DNA of 64,000 nucleotides, from positions 2,170,001 to 2,234,000 of the forward strand of contig NZ_JAUSSF010000001.1 of the NCBI RefSeq assembly GCF_030812195.1, written 5' to 3'. This stretch comes from Chryseobacterium lathyri (lineage in GTDB: Bacteria > Bacteroidota > Bacteroidia > Flavobacteriales > Weeksellaceae). The notes below the pieces were generated by a model, which searched no databases, was not told the DNA's origin, and was given only the letters and a program-made list of their open reading frames with translations. The translations under genes were made by a program, and so were the position numbers. The stretch's first letter is position 1, and every line of letters begins with the position of its first letter. Below, one piece after another: positions 13,870 through 19,827 of this stretch.

Positions 13870-15042
13870 TTAAAGTGAAAGAAAAGCATACGCAAAAGAA
13901 AGTACGGAAATAATAATTCCTGCCATAAATATTTTATAGGTTACAGATAAAAGCTTGTATTTTCTGTCAAGAACTTTCCCCAGGAAATACAGGTCCTTCA
14001 CCATAGAATCATAGATATAATCTCTGTCCTTAATGAGATCCTTCATGGCATCATGATAGTCATTAAACAGCATTTGATGAAAGTTTCCAAAAAAGAGCAG
14101 GTTTACTTTTCTGTCCGCAATATCCTGAGCTGTAAAATTCGTTTTGGTCACATTCGGTTTTGTAGACAGGATCGCAAATATAATGGTCAGAACACTTGAA
14201 GTAAGCAGGATAAAACTCGGAATGATAAGGTGTGCATTCTTTGGAGTATCCAGTTTGGGAACCAATACGGAAAGACAGACTGAAATAATGATGGCATTAA
14301 CCGAAAGAAGAATATTCGCTTTACTGTCAGCAATATCACTCAGTCTTGTATGATTGTTCAGCGTTACTCTGAATAGCGTGTCTACACTGCGGTCAGATTT
14401 GGGCTCTTTGGGCTCTTTCTTATTATTATCTGTGTTTTCTTTTTTATCCTCTTCCTTTTCAAGCTTCTTTTCTATTTTCCTGATGTTTTTCTTTTTCAGA
14501 GGTTCCCAGTTTTCCTTTGCATATTCTGTGTAATAATGGTGCTTATCTTTAAGCATTTCAAGATTCCCGGCGTTCCATTCGTCATTGGAAAAACATCTTA
14601 CGTTAGTAAGTTCCCATTCTTTTCTGAGCGCATCGGAAATATCACTATAATCATAGCTGGCAAAATGACTGCAGTCTGCATCTTTTACAATCTTCTCCAG
14701 AAGGTTCTGCGGTTCATGCGTAATTTTAGTGGCCAGAATCAATTGAGAAACATCCTCAATAAAGCTTTCAGAATAATTTTCCTGCTTCAGGAAATCAGTG
14801 AGGATGGCTACTCCTTTTTCTTCATGATTCTGGGCACATTCTATATAGCCCGTATCATGAAACCACAGTGCCAAAAGTACCTTTTCCTGATCCTCTTTGG
14901 AAACAGGTGTATTTCGCATGATCTCTTCGGCCTTGTTTACCGTATAGGTCGTGTGAATAAAATTATGATAAAAGTATACAGAAGATAACTTATCTTTGAA
15001 TAAGATTTCTACATAATCTTTAGCTTTGTGTAAAATATTCAT
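13870..15042 (-). CDS. HD-domain phosphohydrolase fused to a PycTM-like (Pycsar effector, DUF5706) membrane domain
   Basis: This is a two-part protein of 390 residues. Residues 1-170 are an HD-superfamily domain: H26 and H30 in YHNFIHTTY, the HD doublet H62-D63 in WFHDTGY, and D121/D123 in KDADCSHF are candidate metal ligands. Residues 185-218 are a highly charged Lys/Glu linker. Residues 219-390 match the PycTM/DUF5706 pattern, with the RLSDIADSKANILLSVN signature and three membrane helices (about 243-261, 271-292 and 368-388). Related membrane domains act as effectors of pyrimidine cyclic nucleotide (Pycsar) immunity. No nucleotide cyclase gene is adjacent. The start codon is 26 bp from the divergent phosphoesterase gene, and the bestrophin gene follows downstream. 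The domain calls are from pattern memory. Confidence 0.8.
   Translation of the reverse strand: MNILHKAKDYVEILFKDKLSSVYFYHNFIHTTYTVNKAEEIMRNTPVSKEDQEKVLLALWFHDTGYIECAQNHEEKGVAILTDFLKQENYSESFIEDVSQLILATKITHEPQNLLEKIVKDADCSHFASYDYSDISDALRKEWELTNVRCFSNDEWNAGNLEMLKDKHHYYTEYAKENWEPLKKKNIRKIEKKLEKEEDKKENTDNNKKEPKEPKSDRSVDTLFRVTLNNHTRLSDIADSKANILLSVNAIIISVCLSVLVPKLDTPKNAHLIIPSFILLTSSVLTIIFAILSTKPNVTKTNFTAQDIADRKVNLLFFGNFHQMLFNDYHDAMKDLIKDRDYIYDSMVKDLYFLGKVLDRKYKLLSVTYKIFMAGIIISVLSFAYAFLSL
14996..15028 (+). promoter_or_regulatory. Promoter of the 1237-residue phosphoesterase gene, inside the divergent HD gene
   Basis: TTG at 14996-14998 is followed by a 22-bp spacer and TAGCTTTG at 15021-15028, a full match to the TAnnTTTG -7 box. 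A second match, TATCTTTG, lies at 14991-14998. Both are within the first codons of the oppositely oriented HD/PycTM gene, so the two genes must share or compete for this control region. Confidence 0.55.
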
Positions 15043-15068
15043 CCCTGAATTTTTGTTAATGTAAATTT

Positions 15069-18000
15069 ATGAATTTATCCTTTAAAACTCATTTAAAAAA
15101 AACTTCTATTGCCTTTAGAGCTGTATTGTCTGCAGGAGTTCTCTATTCGTGCGCTACATATAACGTAAAAAAGGGTAAAAACTTATTTGAAGTCAACAAT
15201 TCTGATGTAAAATCTGAGAATGATTTTAAAATTTTCCTGATCGGAGATGCAGGAAATGCAGATGAGCCCCAGGCGCAGCACACCTTAAATTTACTTAAAA
15301 GCAAACTGGACTCGGCAGACAGCAATTCTATGCTGATCTTCCTGGGGGATAATATCTATCCCAACGGATTGCCGAAAGAATCTGACAAAGATTATGCACT
15401 GGCAAAACAAAAACTGGAAAATCAGCTTGCCATTACCAAAAATTTCAAAGGAAAAACGCTTGTTATTCCCGGAAACCATGACTGGAAAAGTGGTATGGAT
15501 GGATTAAAAGCACAGGAAGATCTTGTGAAAGCCTATTTCAACGACAAAAAAGCTTTTCTCCCTAAAAATTCATGCGGTATTGATGATATTAATCTATCAA
15601 AAGATATAAAGCTCATTGTCATAGACACCAAGTGGGCACTGGTAAACTGGGATCAATATCCCGGGATCAATAAAAACTGTACGATCAAAACCCGCGAAGA
15701 TTTTTTTATAGAATTTAAAGATCTCGTTACCAAAAATCAGGATAAAAAGATCATTGTAGCCTTGCACCATCCTGTGATCAGCAGCGGAACACATGCAGGA
15801 TTCAATTCTGCAAAATCACATCTTTATCCACTGAAAAGTAAGGTTCCCGTACCGGTTGTTTCAAGTTTGATCAATATTCTGAGGAGTTCTTCCGGAGCAA
15901 GTCTGGAGGACATCAACAATCAACATTATGCAGATCTGGCCAACAGGCTAAAAAGCATTGTTCAGGATAAGGAAAATATTATTTTTGTATCGGGGCATGA
16001 TCATAATCTGCAATACCATGAAGAAAGGAATATCAGACAGATCATCAGCGGTGCAGGATCCAAAACAGATCCCTCTACTATTGCTGAAAAAACCGATTTC
16101 TCTTACGGAGGAAGTGGGTTTGCCGTTCTGAATATCAGAAAAGACCAGAGCACAGATGTCGAATATTTTTCAACAAAAGATAACAGCATTAAAAAGCTTG
16201 CCCATATTTCTGTAATCTCGAAACCGGATGTTTTTGTGAATAATTATCCAAAAGATTTTCCGTCTACAGCTACTTCAAGTATCTATCCCGTAAAGCTTAC
16301 CAGAAAAGGACCGGTTTACCGTTGGCTCTGGGGCGAGCATTACAGGAAATATTACGGAATTCCAATTGAAGCGCCTACAGCAGATCTCGCTTCACTGAAT
16401 GGCGGTTTTATTCCTTTCAGAGAAGGCGGAGGAAACCAGTCGAACAGTTTGAGGCTGAAAGCAGCAGACGGACAGGAATTTGTCATGCGAGGTGTGAAAA
16501 AGAGCGCAGTACGTTTTCTGAATAATATGGCCTTCAAAAAAAGCACTTTCGGGAATGAGCTGAATAACACATTTCCTGAAAAGTTCCTGCTAGATTTTTA
16601 CACCACCAGCCATCCGTTTACCCCTTTTTCGGTAGGAAATATGGCTGATAAACTGGGTATTTTTCATAGCAATCCGAAATTATACTACATTCCCAAGCAA
16701 TATACTTTAGGTGAGTATAATAAAAATTATGGCGATGAAATGTACATGATCGAGGAGCGATTTTCTGCTGATCCTAAAACGCTGGCTTCGCTGGAGAACG
16801 CTAAAGACATTGTTTCTACGGATGATGTTCTGAAAAATTTCACTAAAAATTATAAATATTCCGTAGACCGCGAATCATATATACGAGCAAGGATTTTTGA
16901 TATGCTGATCGGAGATTGGGACAGGCATTCAGATCAATGGAAATGGGCAGAATACCAGGATGGCGATAAAGTTGTTTACAAACCTATCCCGAAGGACAGA
17001 GACCAAGCCTTCAGCCGGTATGACGGCGCTGCTTTCAAGCTTATTATGAATGTTCCGGCTATCCGTCATATGAAGACTTTTAAAGAAGAGATCAAAAATG
17101 TAAAATGGATGAATATGGAGCCGTATCCGCTGGATCTTATTTTCTTGAAAGGGGCAACCCAGGAAGAATGGACCGCACAGGCAAAGTATATCCAGGAACA
17201 TCTTACGGATGCTGATATTGACGATGCATTCGTTAATCTTCCTAAAGAAGTAAAAGATGAGACCATTGCCGATATCCAACGTAAATTAAAAATCAGAAAA
17301 ACAAAACTTCAGGATTATGCTGCCCAATATTATGATGTGCTTCAGGAAAAAGTTTCTCTTGCCGGAACAGTGAATCCTGATAAATTCGTTATTACAAAAA
17401 CAGCCAATTCCATCAACGTAAAGCAGTATAAATTAGACAAAAACAAAGAAAATCCTGAATTGGTTTTTGAAAAAACATACGAAGATTCTAAAACAAAAGA
17501 ACTCTGGATCTATGGTCTTGAAGATGATGATATTTATGAAGTATCAGGGGATGGAAGGCCTAAGACGAACATCAGGCTGATTGGTGGTTACAACCATGAT
17601 ATCTATAATATTGCTGACGGAAAAGGTGTAAGGATTTATGATTTTAAAAGTCAGAAAAACACATACAACGGCTCCGCAACCAAAAATATATCTGATGATT
17701 ACGATATCAACACCTACAATTATAAGCATCCGAAATATAATTTCTTTGCCGGATACCCGAATGCAGATTACAACCCGGATGACGGCGTGATCTTAGGTGT
17801 TCTGGCTAATTATACGGTTAATAATTTCATCCGTGCTCCTTACACTCAAAAGCATAGCCTTAAAGTTAATTTTTATACAGCAACCGGAGGTTTTAACGCA
17901 GTTTATAAAGGAATTTTCAAAAAAGCAATATCCGGATGGGATTTCAATCTTGATGCAGCCTATACCACTCCCCGCTTTTCCGAAAATTTCTTCGGGCTTT

Positions 18001-18782
18001 CCAACGAAAGTAAATATGATAAGGAAAATACGGAAAGGGAATACAACAGAGCAAGAATTTCCAAGCTCAATTTTGCCCCATCTATCTCTAAGAAAAGCTG
18101 GATGAATCTTCAGCATCAGTTCCAGCTGACCTTTGAGGATAATAAGGTGCAGAAAAACGGTGACCGTTTTGTAGACCAGTCGTCCGATGTGAGACCTGAA
18201 GTTTTCAAAAGCCAGCAGTTTGCAGGGGCCAATTATACATTCAGCTTCAAAAATTTAGATAATAATGCCTTTCCTACTTTAGGACTTGAATTATTAATGA
18301 ATGCAGACTGGAGAACCAATTTATCCAATACTGACAAAAATTTCTTCACTCTGAACGGAACGTTGGCAATAGACCACAGGCTTGACAAAAAAGGACATTT
18401 TGTTTTTGCAAATTCCAGCAATGCCATGTGGATCAGCAATAATAACTTTGAATTCTATCAGGCCGCGAGTATTGGTGGCAATAATGGAATGAGGGCTTTC
18501 CGGAATAACAGATTTTCAGGGAAATCTTATTTTACCAATAATTCTGAGATCCGCTGGGACTTCGGAAGGGTAAGAAACAATATCGTTCCGGCCAATATGG
18601 GAGTTCTGATTGGGTATGACCTGGGACGTGTGTGGAATGATAATGAGGATTCCAAGAAGTGGCATCAGTCTGTAGGAGCAGGATTCTGGATTAGCGTTGT
18701 AGAAATGTTTTCCGCAAGGCTGAATTATTTCCATGGTTCTGACGGAGGAAGGATATCTGCCGGTGTAGGAATGACTTTTTAA
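15069..18782 (+). CDS. Outer-membrane lipoprotein: metallophosphoesterase + possible kinase-fold domain + Omp85-like barrel
   Basis: This protein has 1237 residues. It begins with a lipobox-like signal (AGVLYSC, cysteine 28). Residues 50-370 are a calcineurin-type metallophosphoesterase with all usual metal-site motifs: GDAGN (59-63), GDN (93-95), GNHDW (135-139), HHP near 232 and GHDHN near 308. A middle region (about 400-720) carries EFVMRGVKK (lysines 477/478), GDWDRHSDQW (615-624) and PKDRDQAF (641-648), an arrangement like the catalytic and metal-binding motifs of atypical (HipA/FAM20-type) kinases; this is inference. From about residue 890 the sequence becomes amphipathic strands typical of BamA/TamA-like surface-antigen barrels, ending GGRISAGVGMTF. 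A perfect terminator follows. Substrate and partners are unknown. Confidence 0.82.
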   Translation: MNLSFKTHLKKTSIAFRAVLSAGVLYSCATYNVKKGKNLFEVNNSDVKSENDFKIFLIGDAGNADEPQAQHTLNLLKSKLDSADSNSMLIFLGDNIYPNGLPKESDKDYALAKQKLENQLAITKNFKGKTLVIPGNHDWKSGMDGLKAQEDLVKAYFNDKKAFLPKNSCGIDDINLSKDIKLIVIDTKWALVNWDQYPGINKNCTIKTREDFFIEFKDLVTKNQDKKIIVALHHPVISSGTHAGFNSAKSHLYPLKSKVPVPVVSSLINILRSSSGASLEDINNQHYADLANRLKSIVQDKENIIFVSGHDHNLQYHEERNIRQIISGAGSKTDPSTIAEKTDFSYGGSGFAVLNIRKDQSTDVEYFSTKDNSIKKLAHISVISKPDVFVNNYPKDFPSTATSSIYPVKLTRKGPVYRWLWGEHYRKYYGIPIEAPTADLASLNGGFIPFREGGGNQSNSLRLKAADGQEFVMRGVKKSAVRFLNNMAFKKSTFGNELNNTFPEKFLLDFYTTSHPFTPFSVGNMADKLGIFHSNPKLYYIPKQYTLGEYNKNYGDEMYMIEERFSADPKTLASLENAKDIVSTDDVLKNFTKNYKYSVDRESYIRARIFDMLIGDWDRHSDQWKWAEYQDGDKVVYKPIPKDRDQAFSRYDGAAFKLIMNVPAIRHMKTFKEEIKNVKWMNMEPYPLDLIFLKGATQEEWTAQAKYIQEHLTDADIDDAFVNLPKEVKDETIADIQRKLKIRKTKLQDYAAQYYDVLQEKVSLAGTVNPDKFVITKTANSINVKQYKLDKNKENPELVFEKTYEDSKTKELWIYGLEDDDIYEVSGDGRPKTNIRLIGGYNHDIYNIADGKGVRIYDFKSQKNTYNGSATKNISDDYDINTYNYKHPKYNFFAGYPNADYNPDDGVILGVLANYTVNNFIRAPYTQKHSLKVNFYTATGGFNAVYKGIFKKAISGWDFNLDAAYTTPRFSENFFGLSNESKYDKENTEREYNRARISKLNFAPSISKKSWMNLQHQFQLTFEDNKVQKNGDRFVDQSSDVRPEVFKSQQFAGANYTFSFKNLDNNAFPTLGLELLMNADWRTNLSNTDKNFFTLNGTLAIDHRLDKKGHFVFANSSNAMWISNNNFEFYQAASIGGNNGMRAFRNNRFSGKSYFTNNSEIRWDFGRVRNNIVPANMGVLIGYDLGRVWNDNEDSKKWHQSVGAGFWISVVEMFSARLNYFHGSDGGRISAGVGMTF

Positions 18783-18942: not shown

Positions 18943-19827
18943 TTATTTAGCTTTGGAATTAAATTCAAACCTGAAAACATTTCCGCCCATATCTTTATCT
19001 TTTTCGTCGGCAATCAGAAGGGTTTTATCATCCAAGAAAACAACAGCCTCTTTCTGAGAATTGTGATTTAACGGGATCTTTTCAATTGTTGAAGTATTGA
19101 AATTATCCGCTGTAAACCCGGCAAGTGCATGAATATTTTTGTGAGTAAGCAGAACAACCTTATCTTGGGTACTGTTCACAGCCGCCGAGGTAATGGCAGC
19201 GTCACTATACTTCCCTGCAAGTTTAAGTTTTCCTATTAACTTGGCTTCAAAATTACCTTCTTTATTGGGAACCTGGAATACAAGGAAAGTTCCGTCAAAA
19301 CCTTTGCTTCTGTTTTTAGTGAAAAGGTAGAAATTTCCATTCATCTCTACGAAAGCTTCACAGTCATACAGCCAGTTTGATTTCTTGGGTGGAAATTCGG
19401 TTTGCCCTTCGTAATGAAATTTTGTTGTCTGAACAGCTTTTGTTGTTTTTTGGGAGGCATCCTTCAAGTCCAGTTTTAAAATTGCCAGATTCTGCCTGTT
19501 ATTGTCATTATTTCCAAAATCCCCAAGGTAAATATTTCCCTGAGTATCTTTGGTAATATCTTCCCAGTCATTGTTTTCAGCATTTTCTACCAGAACATCA
19601 GCTATCAGTTTACCCTGCTTATCCAGACCGTAAACTACATTTTTATTGCCTTGGTCTTCTATAGCCCAAATGGTATTTTTATCCTGAGACAGAACGATTC
19701 CTGAAACTTCTTTTAATTTTTTAGGCAAGGAAAATTCCACTGCCAATTCATCGGTTTTAGGAGTATCCTGAGCTTTCGGATTACAGCTCCATAATAAAAA
19801 AGCGGATAAGGTAAGAATACGCAGCAT
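18943..19827 (-). CDS. Secreted lipoprotein, probable beta-propeller (SdiA-regulated/YjiK-like)
   Basis: This is a 294-residue protein with a lipoprotein signal (AFLLWSC, cysteine near 15). The mature part has repeated short-strand segments of the kind found in beta-propellers (EVSGIVLSQDKNTIWAIEDQ, DWEDITKDTQGNIYLGDFGNN, WLYDCEAFVEMNGNFYLFTK), the pattern I associate with the YjiK/SdiA-regulated group. No catalytic residues can be named. It lies 2 bp downstream of the FUSC gene on the same strand, so the two may be cotranscribed. The function is unknown; cell-envelope location is inferred from the signal. Confidence 0.65.
   Translation of the reverse strand: MLRILTLSAFLLWSCNPKAQDTPKTDELAVEFSLPKKLKEVSGIVLSQDKNTIWAIEDQGNKNVVYGLDKQGKLIADVLVENAENNDWEDITKDTQGNIYLGDFGNNDNNRQNLAILKLDLKDASQKTTKAVQTTKFHYEGQTEFPPKKSNWLYDCEAFVEMNGNFYLFTKNRSKGFDGTFLVFQVPNKEGNFEAKLIGKLKLAGKYSDAAITSAAVNSTQDKVVLLTHKNIHALAGFTADNFNTSTIEKIPLNHNSQKEAVVFLDDKTLLIADEKDKDMGGNVFRFEFNSKAK

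Follow-up and report, generated by a model that had tools for sequence, protein, structure and literature searches.

Sequence analysis and structure prediction show that one gene of Chryseobacterium lathyri encodes, in a single polypeptide, a predicted purple-acid-phosphatase-type domain, a kinase-fold domain and a BamA-like outer-membrane barrel. The gene, here termed the kinase gene, occupies positions 15069-18782 (+) of the stretch that was analysed (64,000 nucleotides of contig NZ_JAUSSF010000001.1, positions 2,170,001 to 2,234,000; hereafter the window). It is an intact open reading frame (ORF), running from ATG to stop and specifying 1237 amino acids. We predict that its product is probably a phosphotransfer enzyme of the cell envelope, held in the outer membrane. 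The three-domain protein and its conserved gene neighbourhood together point to an unstudied envelope phosphorylation system of Bacteroidota.

A first-pass annotation of the window, made from the sequence alone, had proposed this ORF and a set of motifs within it. The ORF bounds and all of the motif positions are as it gave them: GDAGN at residue 59, GDNIYP at 93, GNHDW at 135, HHP at 233 and GHDHN at 309, followed by KK at 477/478, GDWDRHSDQW at 615 and PKDRDQAF at 641. The gene is single-copy and full-length in all 23 same-genus genomes searched, at 72-95% identity over its whole length, and full-length homologues occur in many other families of the phylum, which places the motifs far beyond chance. 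The only Pfam match in the protein is Metallophos (residues 53-250), and NCBIfam identifies the Omp85 family at the C-terminus, below the model's own cut-off; residues 400-780 match no model in either database. A full-length AlphaFold2 model (residues 38-1237) has a predicted local distance difference test score (pLDDT) of 85.6 and a predicted template modelling score (pTM) of 0.75.

Kinase-fold middle domain

An AlphaFold2 model of residues 393-890, built from 75 homologues (pLDDT 92.3, pTM 0.92), shows a two-lobed kinase topology, bearing out the kinase fold that the first-pass annotation had suspected. The best solved structure found by Foldseek is CtkA of Helicobacter pylori (E 2.7e-5), followed by the mycobacterial protein MSMEG_1954, Rio2, COQ8A, CotH and PI4KII alpha. 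VIA realignment gives Z scores of 14.9 over 253 residues for CotH (5jda), 14.5 for PI4KII, 13.3 for CtkA, about 11.8 for PI3K-like kinases, 11.4-11.0 for HipA and its relatives, 10.9 for FAM20C (the Golgi casein kinase) and 10.8 for FAM20A. From these model comparisons we assign the domain with high confidence to the kinase fold of the CotH/PI4KII/CtkA/HipA/FAM20 type. The kinship with HipA and FAM20 suggested earlier holds to the extent that the atypical fold is the same, but CotH and PI4KII, which are tied as the nearest folds in these comparisons, come out closer than either. The order of elements in model and sequence is also kinase-like: a glycine-rich GGGxQ stretch flanked by strands on both sides comes first, one strand runs up to K478 and another up to the hinge residue E562, and DWDRH loop, beta hairpin and PxDRD follow in turn.

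Membership in the named families was rejected by sequence. Pfam CotH (PF08757), HipA_C (PF07804) and FAM20 found no match in the protein at E up to 1, for FAM20 despite the similar fold. Comparisons by hhalign with small CotH and HipA sets placed the catalytic loop correctly, yet gave probabilities of only 2.5% and 0.1%, neither of them significant. Pfam searches of 76 family members returned only scattered chance matches among the best 25 of 32 families, and searching NCBIfam and PDB sequences turned up no named relative for the middle domain. CtkA was again the top match in a PDB profile search, at an E of 0.067 that is suggestive only and weak by itself; its loop GNFDRHNGNW aligns in register with GDWDRHSDQW, the loop of the present protein. 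Because the profile-profile results are not significant, the kinase claim is based on fold and residue conservation instead of profile comparison. By sequence, the domain thus appears to be a kinase-fold member outside every Pfam kinase family tested.

Each of the nearest known proteins differs from the one described here. CotH, the spore-coat kinase of Bacillus and the top structural match, likewise has a GxWD loop followed by a PxDxD motif, but shares only 13% identity, and the present protein is exported and carries a phosphatase and a barrel as well. CtkA (3akk) and HipA have the same fold at 11-14% identity but lack both barrel and phosphatase, and HipA works in the cytoplasm as a toxin-antitoxin kinase. 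Type II PI4-kinases and FAM20 are similar in fold, in their DR(H/G) loop and in a DNG-like metal motif, and FAM20 also acts outside the cytosol; they are, however, eukaryotic and without phosphatase or barrel, and Q623 replaces their loop Asn or Glu.

Conservation was examined in 43 non-redundant, diverse full-length homologues collected without motif selection, and in 68 non-redundant middle domains gathered by overall similarity. K478, D643 and D645 are present in all 43 homologues, D618 in 41 and Q623 in 40, with N in the remaining three. Among the 68 middle domains the figures are 94% for K478 and E562, 91% for D618, 96% for R619, 84% for H620, 90% for Q623, 88% for D643 and 87% for D645; these lower values reflect a visibly degenerate minority, mostly proteins without the phosphatase. 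The conserved lysine, catalytic aspartate and metal-binding aspartate expected of a kinase are therefore all found, and orthologues keep the motifs DWDRH and PRDRD. Of the residues whose invariance the first-pass annotation put up for checking, K478, D643 and D645 are invariant among the 43 homologues and D618 nearly so; H620 is less strict, and of the proposed lysine pair only K478 is conserved, K477 being variable among the middle domains. D618 and Q623 are five residues apart, as are the D and N of the CtkA loop. In canonical kinases the catalytic Asp and Asn have this same spacing.

Several points weigh against an active kinase. Q623 stands where the kinase loop has Asn, sequence profiles give the middle domain no significant link to any Pfam kinase family, and a shared, predicted fold would be no proof of function. 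The kinase motifs are missing from some paralogues, and parts of the family may therefore be pseudokinases that bind without catalysing. We also know of no free ATP in the periplasm, where the domain is predicted to lie (see below), so a kinase there would need another donor or imported nucleotide. The substituted Asn, the motif-less paralogues and the lack of periplasmic ATP would all suit a middle domain that is a nucleotide- or ligand-sensing pseudokinase, or another kind of transferase (for example one that AMPylates, as SelO does), with the phosphatase as the working enzyme. Kinase-fold families with switched chemistry do exist, SelO and SidJ among them. We consider this alternative rather unlikely, since it predicts that the kinase residues should be lost more readily than those of the phosphatase, whereas the reverse is seen: K478, D618 and D643/D645 persist in 41-43 of the 43 homologues and phosphatase residues are lost more often. 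Among 94 proteins, 16 have degenerate phosphatase sites and 2 degenerate kinase sites, a contrast that is only suggestive because the set was partly fetched by kinase-motif patterns and is biased to intact kinases.

Copies with degenerate motifs, resembling pseudokinase paralogues, occur at L091:976-3615, L095, L100, L103, L105-L108 and L076; the L091 copy is in tandem with an intact one.

Phosphatase, barrel and cellular location

The N-terminal domain matches PF00149, the calcineurin-like phosphoesterase family. In the full-length model it matches human purple acid phosphatase (PAP; TRAP, 2bq8) at Z 30.8 over 270 residues and Plasmodium GAP50 at Z 29.5. The predicted ligands are D60, D94, Y97, N136, H137, H233/H234, H310 and H312, so that the PAP ligand set (D, D-x-x-Y, NH, H, H-x-H) is present, including the tyrosine, and it is kept in most full-length homologues. 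TRAP and GAP50 share the fold, and PAP the metal ligands as well, but neither is fused to a kinase or a barrel. Five full-length proteins (L114, L126, L136, L139 and L160) have mostly lost the phosphatase active site and have intact kinase motifs.

The C-terminal region is modelled as a barrel of 16 long strands, closest to TamA (8us1, Z 25.2) and BamA (9cs2, Z 25.1). Its loop-6 motif reads MRAF here and LRGY/F in most relatives (family pattern GGxxNLRGY/F). A beta-stack linker leads from the kinase domain to the barrel; the two are conserved together, and several proteins that have only the kinase domain keep the linker too.

Heinz and Lithgow (2014; PMC4104836) described an Omp85 "Metallo" subfamily that combines PF00149 with an Omp85 barrel; they called it a metalloprotease, mentioned no kinase and regarded it as conserved only at genus level. 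With an N-terminal PF00149 domain, no POTRA domains and a 16-strand barrel bearing the loop-6 motif, the protein would be filed there. It differs in that the space between PF00149 domain and barrel is filled by the kinase domain and beta stack, and in that the family is found here in many families of the phylum. The label given to the subfamily in 2014 is thereby corrected, and the middle domain, for which neither Pfam nor NCBIfam has a model, gains a testable function. The first-pass annotation could not name this combination of domains; that remains apt for the kinase part, but the pairing of PF00149 with an Omp85 barrel had already been described (PMC4104836).

The Omp85 barrel, with its conserved loop-6 RG(Y/F) region, and the assembly roles proposed for Omp85 subfamilies of unknown function (PMC4104836) also raise the idea of a BamA/TamA-like outer-membrane assembly factor, in which kinase and phosphatase would replace the POTRA domains as a binding platform. 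We regard this as improbable: it leaves unexplained both the two conserved catalytic sites and the kinase-only proteins that have no barrel.

The lipobox reported by the first-pass annotation is present as LYSC, with a predicted lipidated C28, and is conserved within the genus; related Flavobacteriales have SCAT or GCAT, and in many distant homologues an ordinary signal peptide takes the place of the lipobox. The annotation further described the protein as surface-anchored, a placement that is not supported. The N-terminal domains of Omp85 proteins are periplasmic, and the surface-export signal of Bacteroidota lipoproteins is acidic, unlike the ATYNVKK that follows C28. On both grounds the kinase and phosphatase domains are expected on the periplasmic side of the outer membrane.

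For the envelope phosphotransfer enzyme that we favour, these features suggest the following arrangement. The predicted exported, lipid-anchored N-terminus is followed by phosphatase, kinase and beta stack, and the barrel would fix the protein in the outer membrane; kinase and phosphatase would then face the same periplasmic substrate pool at its inner face. The kinase domain would be the constant core, adding phosphate to an envelope substrate, which may be an outer-membrane or secreted protein, a lipid or a glycan. Removal or recycling of that phosphate would fall to the phosphatase, be it part of the fusion or a protein of its own; some lineages have lost it or have it in degenerate form.

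To our knowledge, very little has been reported on kinases working in the periplasm or outer membrane of bacteria. A literature search that had most subscription journals outside its reach found no paper naming this kinase domain and no bacterial kinase fused to an Omp85 barrel, and the text of two recent papers on Bacteroidota outer-membrane assembly contains neither "kinase" nor "phosphatase". The conserved pairing of kinase and phosphatase raises the question of which molecules receive phosphate at the outer membrane of Bacteroidota, and from which donor. OMP76 of Riemerella anatipestifer and a Riemerella metallophosphoesterase surfaced in the same search; we claim no link to either.

Distribution and domain forms

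Counting a match to any domain, relatives were found in 142 of 296 genomes from across the phylum. Homologues include proteins of Pontibacter, Hymenobacter, Pedobacter, Flammeovirga, Labilibaculum and Tenacibaculum, and others come from metagenome-assembled genomes labelled Balneola, Rhodothermales, Ignavibacteria and Chlorobiota. Besides the three-domain form there are kinase-barrel proteins of about 860 residues that lack the phosphatase, phosphatase-only proteins, and exported kinase-only proteins. In two genomes kinase, phosphatase and barrel are encoded by three consecutive genes on the same strand; their occurrence both as a gene cluster and as a fusion argues that the three parts work together. 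A kinase-domain tree, made by a quick method, indicates that the phosphatase-bearing form was gained or lost repeatedly; its well-supported branches require at least 7 such changes. As the tree is of uncertain root, we claim no ancestral form. Pairs of exported kinase-only proteins occur in Hymenobacter, Pontibacter and Rufibacter (L169-L172, L174, L186, L189), and in one genome a CotH gene lies near a kinase-barrel gene (L085; G056:C15:16534-17403).

Gene neighbourhood

Table 1. Features of the kinase gene and its two neighbours, in window coordinates
Feature	Position	Strand	Basis
HD-domain and PycTM inner-membrane protein, divergent neighbour	13870..15042	-	Pfam PycTM E 2e-33, HD E 6e-9
Signal peptide and lipobox LYSC, predicted lipidated Cys28	15069..15152	+	Sequence; C28 in all same-genus homologues
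Predicted purple-acid-phosphatase-type metallophosphatase domain, about residues 53-385	15225..16223	+	PF00149 E 9e-11, structure match, conservation
Predicted kinase-fold domain, about residues 395-770	16251..17378	+	AlphaFold2, VIA, Foldseek
K478, predicted nucleotide-binding (beta3-type) lysine	16500..16502	+	43/43 full-length homologues, 64/68 middle domains
Predicted catalytic loop GDWDRHSDQW (615-624), D618/Q623	16911..16940	+	Conservation; register with CtkA loop
Predicted metal-binding motif PKDRDQAF (641-648), D643/D645, DFG equivalent	16989..17012	+	Conservation; follows beta hairpin as in kinases; weak hhalign to CotH PYDYDN
Beta-stack linker, kinase to barrel, about residues 771-885, GGxGxD-like repeats	17379..17723	+	AlphaFold2 strands
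Predicted 16-stranded Omp85-type barrel, about residues 890-1237, loop-6 GGNNGMRAF	17736..18779	+	NCBIfam Omp85_fam E 8e-17 (below cut-off), structure, motif
SdiA-regulated (PF06977) beta-propeller lipoprotein, convergent neighbour	18943..19827	-	Pfam E 2e-7

The HD-PycTM protein encoded divergently from the kinase gene (Table 1) has three predicted transmembrane segments and conserved HD residues. Only 26 bp (15043-15068) separate the two start codons, so the promoters must overlap or sit inside the genes. The two genes usually lie about as close together in the genus and in related Flavobacteriales, and within the genus both the length and the sequence of the gap are conserved. In the 296 genomes, counted approximately among the matches listed, 93 have both a kinase gene and a PycTM-bearing relative, 16 the kinase gene only, 7 PycTM only and 180 neither (Fisher p 1e-50, a value inflated by shared ancestry); on the same approximate count, the two lie within 5 kb of each other in 73 of the 93 and within 15 kb in 81. 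The HD-PycTM gene beside the kinase gene is thus an arrangement retained across the phylum. In distant lineages the PF06977 propeller gene lies directly upstream of the kinase gene, often overlapping its start by a few bases, which suggests translational coupling. The link of the kinase gene to this neighbourhood of HD-PycTM protein and propeller lipoprotein is new in this analysis.

If the neighbours act with the phosphotransfer enzyme, we would expect the propeller lipoprotein to be its partner in the periplasm and the HD-PycTM protein a nucleotide-handling partner in the inner membrane. More tentatively, and with low confidence, we suggest that the three proteins may form one trans-envelope system, in which a cytoplasmic nucleotide or stress signal would be coupled to reversible phosphorylation at the outer membrane, the kinase using a periplasmic donor not yet known.

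The PycTM domain of the neighbour could instead mark the locus as an anti-phage defence of the Pycsar type. PADLOC PycTM models do match the HD-PycTM protein (E 6e-17), and in a few distant loci the kinase gene has a gene for a class III cyclase downstream of it. A Pycsar system, however, has a cyclase beside PycTM, and in the window the genes flanking HD-PycTM are a bestrophin-like gene and the kinase gene, neither of which encodes a cyclase; PADLOC found no match in the kinase and propeller genes. The kinase gene is moreover single-copy in every genome of the genus that was searched and gene order is conserved over the phylum, unlike that of mobile defence genes. A defence role is therefore very improbable. 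Since an HD-PycTM protein scored as Pycsar here belongs to a core locus, in which its place beside the kinase gene is conserved, annotations of HD-PycTM proteins as Pycsar effectors may overcount defence systems, and such proteins are now tied to an envelope locus, instead of or besides defence. In the distant loci with the class III cyclase (L127:8539-10497, L128, L152 and L059), it is found together with a TPR gene directly downstream of the kinase gene.

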